A stretch of 61,731 nucleotides of DNA, taken from an uncultured Eubacteriales bacterium (GTDB lineage: Bacteria > Bacillota > Clostridia > Christensenellales > Aristaeellaceae). The DNA lies in the NCBI GenBank assembly GCA_902765735.1, contig CACXBB010000005.1, positions 51,357-113,087 of the forward strand, written 5' to 3'. The notes under the pieces were generated by a model that was not told where the DNA came from, made no database searches, and was given only the letters and a program-made list of their open reading frames with translations. The stretch's first letter is position 1. Every line of letters begins with the position of its first letter. Both the position numbers and the translations under genes were made by a program. This document shows, piece after piece, positions 39,548-60,004 of this stretch.

Positions 39548-40609
39548 ATGAAACGAGTATTGTTGTTCGTATTTATCCTGATGCTTCTCGGTGTTGTTGC
39601 CTTGGCGGACAGCAAGCCAATTCTTTTTGACAATGAGGATGTTCGTATTGTCGCTGAGGGTGCGGAATTAAGCAAAGATTATGTTCATGGTGGAGAGTAT
39701 CTGAATTTGAAAGTTATTGTTGAGAATAACACAGACAAACAGGTTAGGGTTTCTGCTGAGAACTGCGTTATTGATGATTGGGATGTTGATTCATATTGTC
39801 ATATTGAAGTCCAACCTCACAAAAAGAAAAAGGATGAGATTGCTGTTTATTATCAGAACTCGGACATCACCAGTTTTAAAAAAGTCAAAACCTTAGGGCT
39901 TATTTTTAATTTGCTATTCAATTCTGAATACGGGACATCCAAGACCTACAAAGGTAAAAATATAAAAGGAAAATGGATTAATTCTAAAATTGGCGGTAGC
40001 AATTCAAAATCAACTAATAATAAAAAGAAGAAAACCAGTAAGAATACTGACAATTCGGCCTACAAGGATTTAAAATATGGCGATGAAGGAATCGAGGTAG
40101 CATCGCTTCAAATTCGACTTATGGAACTGGGCTATTTGGGACCGACGGAAAACGGTTATGGAGATAAAACGGTTGAAGCTGTTACAAGGTTTCAAAAAAT
40201 AGCAGGCTTGGACATTACAGGCATTGCAGATTCCGAAACTCAAGTTGCATTATTTGATGAAGATGCACCATCCAATTCATTCATTGATGATGATTATAAA
40301 TCAATTATGAGAGATCCTCAGGGGACTTGGCGAAATGCCTATATAATCAAGGGAAAAGTGCATCAGGTCTTAGAAGATAGTTCTTTTGGTACGCAGAATA
40401 AGAATGTCAAGCTATTGGTTGCAACAGCCGACGGCTATGAAAACTTAGTTCTTGTTGAATATACAAGGCAAGAAGGAGAATCTCGTGTACTTGAAGATGA
40501 TACTGTGACTTTCAGAGGCGAAGCCCATGGCACATATCAATACTATAATGTTTTTAATCAAATAAGAGAAGTCCCATATTTTACAACATTTGAAGTGAGC
40601 ATCAATTAA
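39548..40609 (+). CDS. Secreted peptidoglycan-binding protein (AT-rich gene)
   Basis: A 353-residue exported protein. It has a signal peptide (1-20), an Ig-like N-terminal domain (about 22-130, GGEYLNLKVIVENNTDKQV), and a Lys/Ser/Asn-rich linker. A PG_binding_1 domain follows (about 170-235, LQIRLMELGYLG and AVTRFQKIAGL), then a C-terminal OB-fold-like domain (about 255-353). The gene is conspicuously AT-rich and uses A/T-ending codons, unlike its neighbours, so it is probably acquired. The ribosome site is AGCAGGAGG. Its stop codon touches a MITE. Confidence 0.82.
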   Translation: MKRVLLFVFILMLLGVVALADSKPILFDNEDVRIVAEGAELSKDYVHGGEYLNLKVIVENNTDKQVRVSAENCVIDDWDVDSYCHIEVQPHKKKKDEIAVYYQNSDITSFKKVKTLGLIFNLLFNSEYGTSKTYKGKNIKGKWINSKIGGSNSKSTNNKKKKTSKNTDNSAYKDLKYGDEGIEVASLQIRLMELGYLGPTENGYGDKTVEAVTRFQKIAGLDITGIADSETQVALFDEDAPSNSFIDDDYKSIMRDPQGTWRNAYIIKGKVHQVLEDSSFGTQNKNVKLLVATADGYENLVLVEYTRQEGESRVLEDDTVTFRGEAHGTYQYYNVFNQIREVPYFTTFEVSIN

Positions 40610-40770
40610 GGGGCTGTCTCAAAACGCATATAGATTCATGAAACATGCGTAGGGGCGCCAATGCGGCGCCCGCCCGGGTTCGAAACGTGTCGTACTTCAT
40701 AGGCGGGCGGCGCATCGCCGCCCCTACAACATGTATTCATTTGAATGATTATGCGTTTTGAGACAGCCCC
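40610..40770. mobile_element. 161-bp MITE with nested GTAGGGGCG repeat
   Basis: Terminal inverted repeats GGGGCTGTCTCAAAACGCAT and its complement bound the element. The inside is an inverted repeat unit (GTAGGGGCGCC...GGCGGGCGGCGCATC...CCCCTAC, about 40650-40733) that also occurs at 33806-33892. The ends match the GGGCTGTCTCAAAA type seen on several insertion sequences. No transposase is present. Confidence 0.82.
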
Positions 40771-40802
40771 TATTTCCTTCTTCTTGTCGAAAGGAGTTTA
40801 AT

Positions 40803-41345
40803 ATGAGAATCAGATCGACAATCCTCTCTCTTATCCTTATCCAAATATTGGCAGTATCTGCCGTGGCTGCAAGTCGTTCGTTTATTCCTTGCGATTGCAA
40901 TCAACAGCCGTGTACTTGCTTTATTCAATTGGGAGATGAAGGCGGTTTTGTAAAAAGAATAGTTGAGTTATTGATAGATCAAGGATATCTCGCATCGAAC
41001 GTTCCAACCGGTTTGTTCTCTGAAGATGTCGAAGCAGCTGTAATCGAGTTTCAAATAAGAAATAATTTGCCTCAGACAGGAACGATGGACGATGACACGC
41101 TTACACTATTGATTTGGGGCATGTTGCCAGAAAAGTTGGACAAGGCGTTCCCAATTGTCTCAGGGGAACCCAAGACATATCCTGATCAGGTATTCATTCC
41201 TACCGACGGAGGGAAAAAACGTCATCATAGTAAAACTTGTAGCAATATGTATGATCCCAGAAAGGTTTCTATTCGGAATGCCGCTCAGCTTGGTTTTGAT
41301 GCGTGCGGAAAATGTGCAAAAAAGAAAGAAGAACACATGTATTGA
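40803..41345 (+). CDS. Small secreted protein: peptidoglycan-binding domain plus one Cys/His repeat
   Basis: A 180-residue exported protein (signal peptide 1-22). An N-terminal Cys-rich segment (CDCNQQPCTCF) leads into a PG_binding_1-like domain (about 40-105). The C-terminus has one unit of the KxHHSKTCSNMYDPRKVS...GFDACGKC type, the same Cys/His module repeated 13 times in the protein at 53534-56935. It is AT-rich like its upstream neighbour. The start follows AAAGGAG. Confidence 0.78.
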   Translation: MRIRSTILSLILIQILAVSAVAASRSFIPCDCNQQPCTCFIQLGDEGGFVKRIVELLIDQGYLASNVPTGLFSEDVEAAVIEFQIRNNLPQTGTMDDDTLTLLIWGMLPEKLDKAFPIVSGEPKTYPDQVFIPTDGGKKRHHSKTCSNMYDPRKVSIRNAAQLGFDACGKCAKKKEEHMY

Positions 41346-52944: not shown

Positions 52945-53469
52945 ATGAAGATCGGACAATTCCAGGTGTACACCGGCAACGGCAAGGGCAAGACCACCGC
53001 CGCCCTGGGGCTGGCGCTTCGGGCCAGCGGCGCGGGGATGCGGGTGTACTTCTGCCAGTTCATCAAGGATCAGGCGTACAGCGAGATCAAAGCGCTGGGG
53101 ATGCTGCCCAACGTGACGGTAGAACAGTTCGGCACCGGCAAGGGCATACTGACCTACCGCGAAAAGGAGGACGCCGACGTCGCCTGCGCCCGGGCGGGGT
53201 ATGAAAAGCTGGCCGCCGAATTGACCTCCGGGCGCTACGACGTGGTGATCGCCGACGAGATCAACTGCGCCCTGATGTGCGGCCTGCTCGCCGAATCGGA
53301 CCTGCTCCGCCTCGCCGATTTGCGCCCCGAGGGCACCGAGCTGGTGTTCACCGGCCGCGGCGCCACCGACGCCATCCTCCACCGCGCCGACCTCGTCACC
53401 GAGATGCACCTGATCAAGCACTATTATCAGGAAAAGAAGCTGCCCGCGCGCAAGGGCATTGAGATGTGA
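52945..53469 (+). CDS. cobO: Cob(I)yrinic acid a,c-diamide / cob(I)alamin adenosyltransferase
   Basis: A 174-residue CobA/CobO-type ATP:corrinoid adenosyltransferase that attaches the 5'-deoxyadenosyl upper ligand. The P-loop is YTGNGKGKTTAALG (about 8-21), VIADEINCAL the Walker B-like block and TGRGATDAIL near the end. The start follows GGGGAGGTTTGAAC. A strong terminator follows. Confidence 0.93.
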   Translation: MKIGQFQVYTGNGKGKTTAALGLALRASGAGMRVYFCQFIKDQAYSEIKALGMLPNVTVEQFGTGKGILTYREKEDADVACARAGYEKLAAELTSGRYDVVIADEINCALMCGLLAESDLLRLADLRPEGTELVFTGRGATDAILHRADLVTEMHLIKHYYQEKKLPARKGIEM

Positions 53470-53488
53470 TTCCGTTTATATAACTCAA

Positions 53489-53529
53489 ACAGGGACCGCG
53501 GTTTTTCGCGGTCCCTGTCGTTCTTTTTT
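53489..53529 (+). terminator. Rho-independent terminator of cobO operon
   Basis: Stem ACAGGGACCGCG/CGCGGTCCCTGT (53489-53518) followed by TTCTTTTTT. Confidence 0.9.
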
Positions 53530-53533
53530 CGCT

Positions 53534-56500
53534 CTATTTCACCACGCTGGTCGGCGGCTGGCAGAACGGGCAGGCCTTATAGCCCCAGTCCCTGGCATAT
53601 TGCAGGGTGATCTTGGTGCCCTTCTTCATGCCCGTCTTGGAGCACTTGGAGGACTTGTGGTAGTAGTAATACTGCTTGCCCTTCAGATCGACGTACACCT
53701 TGGTGTCGCCGGGAGCGGAGTACTTGGTCTGCGAGGCCAGCGCCTTGCTGTAGGCGACGGCGCTCTTGGCGGAGATGCCGGTGCCCAGCTTCTGGGCGGC
53801 GGCCACGGCCTTGCTGATATTCTTGGCCTCCCTGTTGCTCAGGGTGATGCCCACGGTCTTGCCCTTGGCGCAGGTGGGGCAGAGCTTCTTGCCCAACGCC
53901 CTGGCCTGGGCCAGCGTGCCCGCCTGGGCCCCCGAGCCTGCGTGCATCTTGTAGTAGTGGTAGTACCGGTCGGCGGAGGAGGAGTACACCTTCTTGCTTG
54001 CGGTTGCCATGCACTTCGGGCAGGGCTTCTTGCCGTAGTTCATGGCGGTCTCCAGCGTCACCCGGGAGGGATTCTTCATATCCGAGCAGCCCCGCTTGGA
54101 GTGGTAATACTTGCCGCCCGCGGTGGTGTACACCTTGATGCCGCTGGTGCCGGACTTGTAGCTGGCCACCCGGGAGAGGCGCTTGGCCTTGGTGACGCAG
54201 TAGGGGCAGGGATCGTAGCCGTAGCCCAGCGCGGAGGCCAGGGTGCCGCTCTTGGCGCCGGAGCCCGCGTGGGTCCTGCTGTAATGGTAGTACCTGCCGC
54301 CCCGCGTGGCGTACACGGTGCGCCGCGCCGTCGAGCAGCACACCGGGCAGGCGTGCTTGCCGTAGTTCATCGCCTGTTCCAGGGTGATGCGGCTGGCGTG
54401 GGTCATGCCGGAGCAGTTCTTCCTGCGGTGATAGTACTTGCCGTCGGCCCGGGCGTAGACCTTGATGCCCGACTTGCCGCTCTTGTAGGTGTGGCTGTTC
54501 TTGAGCTTCTTCGCCGCGCTCTTGATGGACTCCACGGTCTTGCTGCTGGCCTTCTTGGCCGAGCTCTTCGACGAGGAAGCGCTGCTCTTCTTGCCGATGC
54601 AGTACTTGCAGGCCGTCTGGTTCAGCATCAGCGCCTGGGCCAGCGTGCGCGCCTCGCCGTTCTTCATGCCGGATTCCTTGCAGACGGGGGCGGAGTGGTA
54701 GTTCTTGCCCTCCTTGGTGGAATACACCTTGCGGTTGGCCGCGCCCGCGCAGGTGGGGCACGCCTTCTTGCCGGCGTCGATGGCCTGCTTGAGCGTGATG
54801 CGGCTGGCGTTCTTCATGCCGGAGCAGTTGCTGGTCAGGTGGTAGTAGGAGCCCGCCTGGGTGGCGTACACGTAGGTGTTGCCCGCCGTGGCGGTGGCCG
54901 CCGCGGAGGTGGTGGACGCCACGCCCGTGGACAGCGTGCCGGTGGAGCCGGTCTCACTCCAGCAGCGCGGGCAGCGCTTGTAGCCCGCGGCGATGGCCTG
55001 GGCCATGGTGCCGCTGGAGGCGTTGCTCATACCGGAGCAGGTGGCGTAGCTGTGGTAGTAGGTGCCGCCCTCCTTGGCATAGACCACGGTGTTGGACGCC
55101 GAGGCGCACACCGGGCAGGCCGCGCGCTTCTGAAGCAACATGCTCTTGAGCGTGTAGCGCTGGGCGTCCTTCATGCCGGAGCAGTACTGATCGGTGTGAT
55201 AGTACCGGCCCTTGGGCGTGCCGTAGACGTATGTGTCCAGCGAGTTCTCCTCGGCCTGTTTGGCCAGCTGGCTGGCGGTGGGCAGCGCGCCGCTCTTGAT
55301 ACACACGTCGCAGCGCTTCTTGCCCATGACCATCGCCTCGGACAGCGTGACCTCCATGGCGTTGGTCATGCCGGAGCAGGTCTTGTCCAGGTGGTACTTC
55401 TCGCCGTTCTTGGTGCAGTACACGCTGCTGCCCGCCGCCTTGCAGCAGGTGGGGCAGGCTTCCTTGCCGGCCAGCAGCGCGTTCTTCAGCGAGTTGCGGC
55501 TCGCCCCGGTCATGCCGGAGCAGGTGCTGGTCATGTGGTAGTACTTGCCCTTCTTGGTGTAGTAGACGTTGATATTGCTCCGGTCCCTGGTGTCGGAGGT
55601 GATGAACTTCACCGAGCCGGTTTTCAGACTCTGGGCGGTCTTGAGTATGCAGACCGGGCAGGGCGTCTTGCCCGCGCGCTCGGCCGCCTCCTTGGTGTAG
55701 ACGGTGGCGTCGGTCATGCCCTGGCAGGTGCGGTCCACGTGGTAGTAGGTGCCGCCGCGGGTGGCGTAGTAGGTGGTGGTGTCGCCGTCCGCCGCCGCGC
55801 CGATACACACCGGGCACGCGGACTGCTTGCGGTTGTTCTCCGCCACGTCCCTGGGCACGCGGGAGACCGACACGCCCTTGTCGATGTTGGTACAGTCGCT
55901 CTTGCTGTGGTAGTACAGGCCGGTGGCCGGGCTGTACACGTAGGCCGAGCTGGTGGCCGCGCCGGAGGCGCTCGAGCCGGTCAGCGGCGTGGGCGAGGGC
56001 GCCACGGCGGCCTCGCCGCCGGCCTCGTCGTCGTCGCCGTCGTCCGCCTCGTCGCCGGTCTCGTCGGCGGTCTCGTCCCCGGAAGTATCCTCGCCCAGGT
56101 TGTCCACCGTCAGGTCCAGATCGGACTTGGACGAGCCGTCCAGGTTCAGCGCCGAGACCGTGGCGGAGGGCGCCAGGGTGATGGTGGCGTCGGTGGTGGT
56201 ATCGCTGGCCCCGCCGAACAGGTTGTGGAACAGCAGTATCAGCGCCACGATGAACCAGATGGCCGACACCGCGCTGATGGCGTAGCGTACGGGCTTTTCG
56301 AACCGGTTCCTGCGCCACAGCAGATAGATGCCCAGCGGCGGGAACAGGAACAGCAGCAGGAAGGTGACCCAGTCGTTCTCGTCCACATACCGCATCAGCG
56401 GGCTCTCATTGGCGTAGTAGCCCTCCTCGCCGTAGCCGTCGCCGGCGTCCTCGTCGGAGTAGCGGTCGTCGTACTCGCCGGAATCGTCGTAGCCCTCGCC

Positions 56501-56935
56501 GTCCTCGTCGTAGCCCTCGCCGTCCTCGTCGTAGGCCTCGTCGTCGTAGCCGTCGTCATAGCCGTCGCCGGCGTCCGCGTCGTCATAGCCGTCGTCGTAG
56601 CCGGGATCGTCGTCGTAGCCGTCCCCGTTGTCGTCGTAGCCGTCCCCGTTGTCGTCGTAGCCGTCGTCGTAGCCGTCGTCAAAGCCGGGGTCGTCGGCGT
56701 AGTCCTGGCCGTCGGCGTCGTAGTTGTCGTCGTAGCCGGGGTCCGCGTAGTTGTCGTCGGCGTAGTCGGCGTCGTAGTCCTCGCCCTCGTAGCCGGCGTA
56801 GTTCTCCTCATTATCCGCATCGCCCGCCTTGGGCTTTCGGGCAAACAGCCGATGGATCTCGCCCTCGCCCCAGCGGTAGGCCAGACCCTGCTTCGACAGA
56901 TTGAATTTCAATTTTCCAATCGCGTGTGTTGCCAT
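53534..56935 (-). CDS. Membrane protein with 13 Cys/His repeats and an acidic Asp/Tyr/Gly tract
   Basis: A 1133-residue protein. The first 36 residues are basic-amphipathic. Residues about 38-180 are a very acidic DDGYDD-type tract. Two membrane segments (about 188-208, 220-240) enclose a basic loop (RRNRFEKPVR). After an acidic Thr/Ser linker come 13 units of the form V-Y-x3-G-x-Y-Y-H-x4-C-S-G-M-x2-A-x3-T-L-x2-A-x3-G-x3-C-P-x-C. In units 10 and 12 the first Cys is replaced by His (RTHAGSGA, KMHAGSGA), keeping a metal ligand. The pattern resembles small Zn-binding Ada-like domains. The start follows AAGGTGG; promoter at 57037-57065. The function is unknown; metal binding outside the membrane is the best guess. 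Confidence 0.85.
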   Translation of the reverse strand: MATHAIGKLKFNLSKQGLAYRWGEGEIHRLFARKPKAGDADNEENYAGYEGEDYDADYADDNYADPGYDDNYDADGQDYADDPGFDDGYDDGYDDNGDGYDDNGDGYDDDPGYDDGYDDADAGDGYDDGYDDEAYDEDGEGYDEDGEGYDDSGEYDDRYSDEDAGDGYGEEGYYANESPLMRYVDENDWVTFLLLFLFPPLGIYLLWRRNRFEKPVRYAISAVSAIWFIVALILLFHNLFGGASDTTTDATITLAPSATVSALNLDGSSKSDLDLTVDNLGEDTSGDETADETGDEADDGDDDEAGGEAAVAPSPTPLTGSSASGAATSSAYVYSPATGLYYHSKSDCTNIDKGVSVSRVPRDVAENNRKQSACPVCIGAAADGDTTTYYATRGGTYYHVDRTCQGMTDATVYTKEAAERAGKTPCPVCILKTAQSLKTGSVKFITSDTRDRSNINVYYTKKGKYYHMTSTCSGMTGASRNSLKNALLAGKEACPTCCKAAGSSVYCTKNGEKYHLDKTCSGMTNAMEVTLSEAMVMGKKRCDVCIKSGALPTASQLAKQAEENSLDTYVYGTPKGRYYHTDQYCSGMKDAQRYTLKSMLLQKRAACPVCASASNTVVYAKEGGTYYHSYATCSGMSNASSGTMAQAIAAGYKRCPRCWSETGSTGTLSTGVASTTSAAATATAGNTYVYATQAGSYYHLTSNCSGMKNASRITLKQAIDAGKKACPTCAGAANRKVYSTKEGKNYHSAPVCKESGMKNGEARTLAQALMLNQTACKYCIGKKSSASSSKSSAKKASSKTVESIKSAAKKLKNSHTYKSGKSGIKVYARADGKYYHRRKNCSGMTHASRITLEQAMNYGKHACPVCCSTARRTVYATRGGRYYHYSRTHAGSGAKSGTLASALGYGYDPCPYCVTKAKRLSRVASYKSGTSGIKVYTTAGGKYYHSKRGCSDMKNPSRVTLETAMNYGKKPCPKCMATASKKVYSSSADRYYHYYKMHAGSGAQAGTLAQARALGKKLCPTCAKGKTVGITLSNREAKNISKAVAAAQKLGTGISAKSAVAYSKALASQTKYSAPGDTKVYVDLKGKQYYYYHKSSKCSKTGMKKGTKITLQYARDWGYKACPFCQPPTSVVK

Positions 56936-57036
56936 ATTTTTACCACCTTATATTTCCCCGTCCGCGCACTCGCGCCAAACGGCTTCAGGGCAGCGGTGGC
57001 TGCCATTACAAACCTATGATACTTGATGCCATTACA

Positions 57037-57065
57037 AGCATACATCATATATTGGGCAATGTCAA
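57037..57065 (-). promoter_or_regulatory. Promoter of 13-repeat protein
   Basis: Minus-strand TTGACA (57060-57065) and TATGCT (57037-57042), 17 bases apart, in an AT-rich stretch of about 310 bases with no gene. Confidence 0.65.
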
Positions 57066-57171
57066 TCGGTTAGAGCACAAAAAGTGAAATTTTGTCATAA
57101 TTTAATGCAATAGTTTCGTCACATATCGAAATATTATCGCAAAAAATATGCCGAAAGATCACATTCTTCCA

Positions 57172-57200
57172 TTGCCTGCGAATTTCGATTGTGTTATAAT
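57172..57200 (+). promoter_or_regulatory. Promoter of CapA-like gene
   Basis: TTGCCT and TATAAT 17 bases apart, 49 bases before the start codon. Confidence 0.75.
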
Positions 57201-57248
57201 ATATCCATAATTTTGCGGAATCATTACGGGATTATTGGAGGTAGTGTT

Positions 57249-58547
57249 ATGTCAAAACCGGTAAGGGGCTTGCGGATCGGCAAATACCGCATCACGCCGC
57301 TGGGCCTGATTACATTGTCGATACTCTTACTTATTATAATAGGCGTGGTGGTGATGGTGGTGTTCAACCCCTTCGGCGGGATGGACAACCCCTTCGTAAA
57401 GGAAACGCCCACGCCGACGGTGGACCCGGCCAGCGTGACGCCCACGCCTTCGCCGTCGCCGTCCCCCTCCCCCACGCCGGAGCCTGAGCCGAAGACCGCC
57501 AGGATCCGCTCGCTGGGCGAGACGGCCATGCAGCTCAACCTGCTCAAATCCGTGGCCAACGGCAACGACTTCGACTTCAGCGAGATGTTCAGCTACGTCA
57601 GCGACATCATGGGCGACGCGGACTACACCGTGGCCGACGTGGAGGGCACGCTGGGCGGCGTCGCCGGGGTCAAGGGCAACCTGTCCGAGATGATCACCCC
57701 GCCGTCGCTCATCGAAACGCTCAAGGACTGCGGCGTGGACATGCTGACGCTTGCCAACGACCACGCCCTCGACGGCGGCGCGGACGAGCTCAAGGCCACC
57801 ATGCAGAACCTCAAGGACGCCGACATGGCCTACATCGGCGCGGCATCCTCCGCCGAGGAAAAGAAAGCCCCGGTCATCGTGGACATCAACGGCATCAACG
57901 TGGCCTTCCTGGCCTACACCGAGGACCTGGGCGGCAAGGAGAAGGAAGCGTCCAAGAGCCTTCTGAACGCCGTGAACCTGGTCACCAAGTCCAACGCCAG
58001 CGCCGACGTCAAGGCCGCCCGTGAGGCGGGCGCGGACGTGATCGTGTGCTACGTCAGCTGGGGCAAGATGCTCAAGCGCGACATCACCGCCAACCAGAAG
58101 ACCATCATGAAGGTGCTGGTCAAGGCGGGCGTGGACGTGATCATCGGCTACGGCCCCCACTGCGTGCAGCCCGCCGCGTGGGTGGATGGCCCGAAGGACG
58201 CCGAGGGCAACGTGCACCGCACGCTGATCATGTGCTCCACCGGCAACTTCCTGTCCGACCAGCGCGATCAGTACTTCGACTCCGGCATCATATTCGACTT
58301 CACCATCCAGGAGACCGGCCCGGCCACCGGCAAGTACACCATCACCGCGCCGACCTACATCCCGACCTACGTCTGGCGCGCGCAGGGCGAGGGCGACAAC
58401 TACACCTATCACACCCTGGCCGTGGGCCAGTGGCGCGAGGATCAGCCCGAAAATATGGCCTATACTGACGTCACCCGCATGCGCGCCGTGTGGTCCGAGA
58501 TCCAGAATATCATGGGGACCGACGTGGCCACCATCGCGGCGGAATAA
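57249..58547 (+). CDS. CapA-like metallophosphatase (poly-gamma-glutamate capsule type)
   Basis: A 432-residue membrane-anchored protein. One transmembrane segment (about 18-42) and a Pro/Thr-rich linker (to about 78) precede a CapA domain (about 80-400). Visible blocks are DVEGTLGG, LANDHALDGG, YVSWGKMLKR and GYGPHCVQPA, the metal-ligand order of the family. CapA proteins take part in anchoring or releasing poly-gamma-glutamate; no capB/capC is in the window, so it may act on another envelope polymer. The ribosome site is GGAGG. Confidence 0.88.
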   Translation: MSKPVRGLRIGKYRITPLGLITLSILLLIIIGVVVMVVFNPFGGMDNPFVKETPTPTVDPASVTPTPSPSPSPSPTPEPEPKTARIRSLGETAMQLNLLKSVANGNDFDFSEMFSYVSDIMGDADYTVADVEGTLGGVAGVKGNLSEMITPPSLIETLKDCGVDMLTLANDHALDGGADELKATMQNLKDADMAYIGAASSAEEKKAPVIVDINGINVAFLAYTEDLGGKEKEASKSLLNAVNLVTKSNASADVKAAREAGADVIVCYVSWGKMLKRDITANQKTIMKVLVKAGVDVIIGYGPHCVQPAAWVDGPKDAEGNVHRTLIMCSTGNFLSDQRDQYFDSGIIFDFTIQETGPATGKYTITAPTYIPTYVWRAQGEGDNYTYHTLAVGQWREDQPENMAYTDVTRMRAVWSEIQNIMGTDVATIAAE

Positions 58548-58993: not shown

Positions 58994-60004
58994 ATGTTAT
59001 CACAATCCCTCCTCACCTGGTACGACCAGAACCGCCGCGACCTCCCCTGGCGCGGCACCCGCGACCCCTACCGGATCTGGCTGTCGGAGATCATGCTCCA
59101 GCAGACCCAGACCGAGACGGTGAAGGGCTACTACGCCCGCTTCCTGGTCCGCTTCCCCACGGTGACGTCGCTGGCGTCGGCCGGGGAGGACGAGGTGCTC
59201 AAGCTGTGGGAGGGTCTGGGCTACTACTCACGGGCCCGCAACCTGCACGCGGCGGCGAAGGCCGTGGCGGCCTCGGACGGGGTGTTCCCGCCCGACGCGG
59301 CGGGGCTTCGGAGGCTGCCCGGCATCGGACCCTATGCGGCCAACGCCATCGCCTCCATCGCCTACGGGGAGGTCGCCCCGGCGCTGGACGGCAACCAGGC
59401 GCGGGTGCTCTCCCGGGTGCTGGCCTGGGAGGAGCCGTTAAAGACGCCCTTCGACCTGCTCTCCCCCGCCCTCGAGCTGATCTCAAGGGACCGCCCCGGC
59501 GACTACAACCAGGCGCTGATGGATCTTGGGGCCACCATCTGCCTCCCGAAGCGGCCGGACTGCGACCGCTGCCCGGTCAGGCCGTGGTGCAGGGCCTGCC
59601 GGGAGGACGCCGCCCCGGACTACCCCCGCAGGGTCGCGCCCGTCGCAAAAAAACAGCAGGACTGGACGATCCTGCTGATCACCTGCGGCGGCGGGACGCT
59701 GGTGCGCCGCCGCCCCAGGGGGCTGCTGGGCGGGCTGTATGAGTTCGTGGCGCTTCAGGGGCACCCCGACCGGGACGCGCTGCCCGCCCTCCTCAACGAA
59801 AAGGGCTTCTCGGGGGTCGAGATTCTGGAGCCCCTGCCCGACGCGAAGCACGTGTTCACCCATCTCGTCTGGCACATGCGGGGCTGGCGCGCCGTCTGCA
59901 CGGCCTATCCCCCGGATTACGCCCCCGCCGACGACCTCGACGCCCTCGCCTTCCCCAGCGCGCTGAGAACATATCGCACTGCCGCGCTGAAGCCTTCCCC
60001 TTGA
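58994..60004 (+). CDS. mutY: A/G-specific adenine DNA glycosylase
   Basis: A 336-residue MutY that removes adenine opposite 8-oxoguanine. SEIMLQQTQTETV has the catalytic Glu, LPGIGPYAANAI is the helix-hairpin-helix, ALDGNQARVLSR bears the catalytic Asp, and CLPKRPDCDRCPVRPWC is the C-x6-C-x2-C-x5-C 4Fe-4S motif. The C-terminal NUDIX-like lesion-recognition domain follows. The last residues (KPSP) and the stop codon are made by a hairpin repeat, so the original end was replaced. The ribosome site is GAGG. Confidence 0.94.
   Translation: MLSQSLLTWYDQNRRDLPWRGTRDPYRIWLSEIMLQQTQTETVKGYYARFLVRFPTVTSLASAGEDEVLKLWEGLGYYSRARNLHAAAKAVAASDGVFPPDAAGLRRLPGIGPYAANAIASIAYGEVAPALDGNQARVLSRVLAWEEPLKTPFDLLSPALELISRDRPGDYNQALMDLGATICLPKRPDCDRCPVRPWCRACREDAAPDYPRRVAPVAKKQQDWTILLITCGGGTLVRRRPRGLLGGLYEFVALQGHPDRDALPALLNEKGFSGVEILEPLPDAKHVFTHLVWHMRGWRAVCTAYPPDYAPADDLDALAFPSALRTYRTAALKPSP

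Follow-up and report, generated by a model that had tools for sequence, protein, structure and literature searches.

The closest described relatives of the repeat reported here are the metal-binding domain of the repair protein Ada (PF02805, N-Ada; PDB 1u8b, 1zgw, 1wpk, 1adn) and the Ada-like C-terminal domain of secreted-type nucleases and metallo-beta-lactamases. According to PMC4437013, Cys38 of Ada is the methyl-transfer acceptor and N-Ada binds DNA. Judged from sequence, the repeat shares with N-Ada four ligands ending in C-x2-C, and with the secreted-type domain the H-x4-C...C-x2-C type of ligands and a secreted-looking context. We analyzed a 61,731-nucleotide stretch (the window; contig CACXBB010000005.1) from an uncultured Eubacteriales bacterium of the family Aristaeellaceae and found a gene for a protein of 1133 amino acids in which thirteen such units follow two hydrophobic segments. 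The unit is an Ada-like domain, and thus of a known kind, and the paired, thirteen-fold membrane architecture appears to be a new variation on it. Among the literature matches listed, no tandem Ada-like array was described, and the zinc passages of PMC5031224 contain no mention of Ada. The finding suggests that a domain of DNA repair and of secreted-nuclease ends has been built into long paired arrays in one Clostridia family.

The array gene is an open reading frame on the minus strand, and an open reading frame on the plus strand (53459-57019) spans it too. From the N- to the C-terminus, the protein consists of the conserved short start MATHAIGKLKFNLS, an acidic stretch, a pair of hydrophobic segments joined by a basic loop, a linker and the thirteen units, which run up to the C-terminus. 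The units were placed by the Cys/His listing and the unit profile, and units 3 and 4 also by the pair model. The features, with ligand letters in brackets, are as follows:

53534..56935, minus strand: array gene, protein of 1133 amino acids (open reading frame list)
56843..56935, minus strand: N-terminal small beta module, residues 1-31, weakly DUF4236-like
56402..56824, minus strand: Asp/Tyr/Gly-rich acidic stretch, residues 38-178, predicted disordered
56309..56374, minus strand: hydrophobic segment 1, residues 188-209, helix broken near Pro-Pro
56216..56296, minus strand: hydrophobic segment 2, residues 214-240
55946..56215, minus strand: linker, residues 241-330, predicted disordered
55805..55939, minus strand: unit 1 (HCCC), pair A
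55649..55774, minus strand: unit 2 (HCCC), pair A
55445..55567, minus strand: unit 3 (HCCC), pair B
55301..55423, minus strand: unit 4 (HCCC), pair B
55106..55234, minus strand: unit 5 (HCCC), pair C
54962..55084, minus strand: unit 6 (HCCC), pair C
54749..54877, minus strand: unit 7 (HCCC), pair D
54599..54727, minus strand: unit 8 (HCCC), pair D
54338..54466, minus strand: unit 9 (HCCC), pair E
54197..54316, minus strand: unit 10 (HHCC), pair E
54011..54139, minus strand: unit 11 (HCCC), pair F
53870..53989, minus strand: unit 12 (HHCC), pair F
53561..53704, minus strand: unit 13 (HCCC), single

An earlier note on this DNA had described a large protein with thirteen H-x4-[C/H]...C-x2-C units after two membrane segments, which the open reading frame and the Cys/His listing confirmed. 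The acidic tail that it mentioned lies at the other end: the acidic stretch is N-terminal (about residues 38-178), ahead of the membrane segments, the linker holds a smaller acidic patch, and the C-terminus is not acidic. The closest named records are Clostridia metagenome-assembled genomes, RUG13574 and a goat ileum bin, which are 94-95% identical across residues 140-1133.

The pattern H.{4,5}[CH].{17,30}C..C starts 13 times in the array, compared with 0.07 times on average and at most 3 times in 2000 shuffles of the same residues. All 40 Cys of the protein lie inside unit matches; 37 of them are ligands by position, and the extra ones are C498, C507 and C867. The His said to replace the first Cys in units 10 and 12 was found in the Cys/His listing as H889 and H998, respectively. 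A YYH-type His and the CxxC pair had been said to be kept in all units. The ligand His and C-x2-C are indeed present in 13/13 units and the preceding residue is always Tyr, but 'YYH' is not universal, because one residue further back unit 4 has Lys and unit 8 has Asn.

Ligand statistics were drawn from 584 unit matches in 51 arrays, which were picked mostly from the best matches and not randomly; L097 and L099 were chosen as paralogs, L066 and L068 are cut by contig ends, a single unit of L074 gave two matches, one for each half, and the first match in L082 is partial. Ligand position 1 was His in 582/584 matches (2 gaps), and positions 3 and 4 were Cys in 583/584 each (1 gap each). Position 2 was C in 524, H in 44, D in 12, F in 1 and N in 1, with 2 gaps; 580 of the 582 lettered matches therefore have C, H or D there, and 56 of the 58 changed units keep a metal ligand. 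Within thirteen-unit proteins, only units 9 to 12 showed the His/Asp swaps; in the genus, His stands in unit 12 of 21/21 proteins, and unit 10 has C, H or D. Position 2 thus varies almost only among metal ligands, as predicted for a working metal site. The preserved four-ligand site proposed earlier is, as far as sequence can tell, strongly supported for each unit by this conservation, and the natural C/H/D swaps at one position make it easy to test.

A feature absent from the earlier note is the arrangement of the units as six close pairs and one single, which was seen in 29/29 thirteen-unit proteins. With gap lengths set by the profile boundaries, gaps within pairs were at most 7 residues in 174/174 cases and gaps between pairs at least 12 in 174/174. 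The set A3 comprised 27 of these 29 proteins (L057 and L065 left out), and from the 264 close pairs (176 after thinning), 108 went into the set A2. When the 13 window units were compared with each of 20 congeners, 10 to 13 found their best match at the same index; in eight proteins from other genera only 5 to 10 did so. Because best matches fall at the same index, the modules look old and individually retained rather than freshly duplicated.

Thirteen units were present in the window and in 20/20 congeneric loci fetched, the count being constant in the congeners examined, and also in 8/28 loci from other genera of the family. Arrays of other genera gave 5 to 16 unit matches, many of them without strict pairing. 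Some match was obtained in 28/28 congeneric genomes, not always to the full protein; units were counted in the window's own genome and 20 others of the 28, leaving out G001, G005, G006, G007, G010, G017 and G020 (G005 and G020 gave shorter relatives only, G007 and G010 short frames). In the family sample, 79/150 genomes and 34/50 genera had at least one unit at E 1e-5. In the phylum sample, a unit was found at the same threshold in 11/398 genomes, the own genome included, and the other ten gave one or two matches each. In L082 (5672-9098), the units are split across two frames (506 and 718 amino acids) by a frameshift or an assembly error.

No Pfam or NCBIfam match above cut-off was obtained for the whole array protein, so the earlier statement that it belongs to no recognised family holds at these cut-offs, and no match to the full architecture was found there. 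The PF02805 cut-off was not reached either: the whole protein gave no match, 1/13 units matched with a best E of 0.034, and the search of the window's genome with this family gave none. The resemblance to an Ada-like or nuclease-associated zinc domain suggested earlier emerged from profile-profile comparison. With E 3.3e-6 and a score of 33.1, the units matched the Ada-like domain in a set of 23 secreted-type sequences, the Cys pairs of the metal site being aligned with each other; 0/100 column-permuted nulls reached 33.1, the maximum being 11.3. These 23 domains in turn matched six true Ada domains with a probability of 98.3. The direct match of the units to true Ada was weak and misaligned (score 14.1; 1/100 nulls). 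For several proteins that carry the secreted domain, the score lies above the PF02805 cut-off. Among the carriers scanned with Pfam, L103, L109 and L110 have SNase and L115 has metallo-beta-lactamase; the remaining single-domain carriers were read by eye, and many start like signal peptides or lipoproteins. The model of a two-unit pair had a predicted local distance difference test score (pLDDT) of 92.9. Against the PDB, 4/4 reported rows were E. coli N-Ada, as weak matches, and Ada-labelled viral models matched better. Taken together, each unit is almost certainly an Ada-like metal module.

The units differ from N-Ada in several respects. The place of Cys38 is taken by His in every lettered unit, an equivalence that comes from the secreted-domain alignment and is inferred from the structural-match ranges; the spacing is x4, not x3; and Pro mostly stands where Ada has the CxxC lysine. 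The array units are, moreover, tandem, membrane-anchored and without a Pfam match above cut-off. Since the methyl acceptor is replaced by His, methyl repair by the array protein is not expected, and with the Pfam cut-off not reached it is not an Ada protein. The secreted-type enzymes carry one Ada-like copy each, in contrast to 5 to 16 unit matches in the arrays, and the window protein, unlike them, has no enzyme domain in its 1133 amino acids by Pfam and NCBIfam.

A second likeness concerns the N-terminus, where LKFNLS..G....G resembles the core of DUF4236 (PF14020) with a score of 21.5 (0/200 nulls, maximum 19.4) over only 15 aligned columns. The family cut-off was not reached (12.7 bits vs 27, in 1/7 N-termini). 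L109 combines DUF4236, SNase and a unit that follows a hydrophobic segment, and two DUF4236-labelled viral models match the pair model. The Ada-like motif was present in 0/14 DUF4236 proteins read (14 of 20 loci; 6 did not fit the search pattern).

The loop between the hydrophobic segments has a charge of +2 to +4 in 39/51 arrays, those in which the loop motif was found, and the 15 residues ahead of segment 1 are net acidic in 37 of these 39. By the positive-inside rule, a basic loop stays inside the membrane. Because the loop is basic, it should be inside and the array outside, and this location, judged from sequence, is probable. If both segments span the membrane, the acidic N-terminus would be outside too. 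A re-entrant first segment with the N-terminus inside would fit the broken segment 1 and the basic N-termini, noted by eye, of two shorter paralogs in the window's genome. Elsewhere, including in some proteins of the same genome, the unit was seen by eye to come after a signal-peptide-like start or one hydrophobic segment.

The explanation that we favour, and to which we give about an even chance, is a string of thirteen Ada-like structural-zinc modules for multivalent binding, anchored in the membrane and probably exposed at the surface. A single metal ion, most probably Zn(II), would organise the fold of each module, with His-x4-Cys (or His/Asp) and Cys-x2-Cys as its ligands. The six close pairs and one single on flexible spacers would form a multivalent binding fibre outside the membrane, with an extracellular polymer as the most likely ligand. 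Nucleic acid is the best single guess, tentative and unproven, given that the modules are most closely related to domains at the C-termini of secreted-type nucleases and that DNA is bound by N-Ada. Two observations weigh against it: the net charge per unit varies from basic to slightly acidic, and proline has mostly taken the place of the lysine beside the first CxxC cysteine. The array is in any case a direct route to learning what the secreted Ada-like domain binds.

The main rival, possible but rather doubtful, is a zinc-stiffened surface stalk or adhesin in which the modules serve mainly as structural spacers, or attach to peptidoglycan, to other polymers of the wall or to adjacent cells instead of nucleic acid. 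It is consistent with the constant module count in the fetched congeners, the index-wise matching of modules, the variable spacers and the same variation in unit charge. One unit occurs together with PG_binding_1, the TadE-like protein L107 (L149 is below the cut-off) ends in two close units, and a PGA_cap protein is a frequent neighbour. However, no known adhesin domain was found by Pfam or NCBIfam, and a neighbourhood shared with PGA_cap and MutY-type genes proves no functional link.

A more specific form of the nucleic acid idea is a surface DNA-capture fibre of permanently 'switched-on' Ada modules that catches extracellular nucleic acid. When Cys38 of Ada is methylated, the Zn-Cys4 site becomes less negative, which eases DNA binding. 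By ligand arithmetic, which gives formal charge only, His at this place gives a site of -1, as in methylated Ada, and the HHCC sites have 0; the modules might for this reason be constitutively DNA-compatible. We regard such a fibre as unlikely. A metal store, buffer or scavenger, in which zinc or a different thiophilic metal is kept exchangeable at the thirteen sites, would agree with the completeness of all thirteen sites and with the retention of a metal ligand at position 2, but each site lies within a folded module that has further conserved residues, and sites of this type mostly have a structural role; the promoter is of plain sigma-70 type, metal-regulator sites not having been searched for, and we see little chance for this reading. 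Least probable of all is a cytoplasmic array with both ends inside, whose membrane-anchored modules act on cell DNA or RNA: Cys sites are easily reduced in the cytoplasm, where Ada itself is found, and an acidic N-terminus 190 residues long is difficult to export if it lacks a signal peptide, but the loop charge favours the array outside and the relatives look secreted.

Units were also found in other proteins. In the window there is one such gene:

40758..41345, plus strand: small protein with a signal-peptide-like start (by eye), PG_binding_1 and one divergent unit at its end

Its neighbour at 39548-40609 is also small and has PG_binding_1. A second protein of the window's genome (L002, 319-2040, minus strand) has two hydrophobic segments, a Pro/Thr-rich linker and three unit matches (four by eye), and in another the unit follows a single hydrophobic segment. 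The paired form recurs outside the arrays, since three short proteins end in two close units: L107 (943-1806, plus strand), above Pfam's TadE cut-off; L149 (2473-3282, plus strand), from a phage-labelled record and below that cut-off; and L112 (1339-2100, minus strand), which is similar and has no Pfam match. They share the close C-terminal units with the array pairs and differ from the array protein in being short, with no long array and no long acidic stretch seen. In L095, L098, L100 and L101, which look like anti-sigma factors, the units follow a single hydrophobic segment; L095, L098 and L101 gave no Pfam match above cut-off.

The surroundings of the array gene were compared by tblastn among 48 fetched array loci. 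The neighbouring genes and the promoter-like site are:

57189..58547, plus strand: divergent neighbour with PGA_cap domain, in 31/48 loci
58994..60004, plus strand: protein with HhH-GPD and NUDIX_4, presumably MutY-type, in 30/48 loci
57037..57065, minus strand: sigma-70-type promoter-like site TTGACA-N17-TATGCT (sequence motif), 101 bases ahead of the ATG

Both neighbours also recur in other genera. Of the loci that lack them, some stop at a contig end, but others (L076, L078 and L080) continue for several kilobases beyond the array. Cobalamin genes on its opposite flank were found only in L047. The same promoter motif lies upstream of 25/29 thirteen-unit genes; among the four misses, two (L066 and L068) run into contig ends, and for the other two (L053 and L058) the 300-base stretch ended short of or inside the site. 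Between the promoter and the divergent PGA_cap gene (57066-57188), blocks look conserved by eye and may contain a regulator site.
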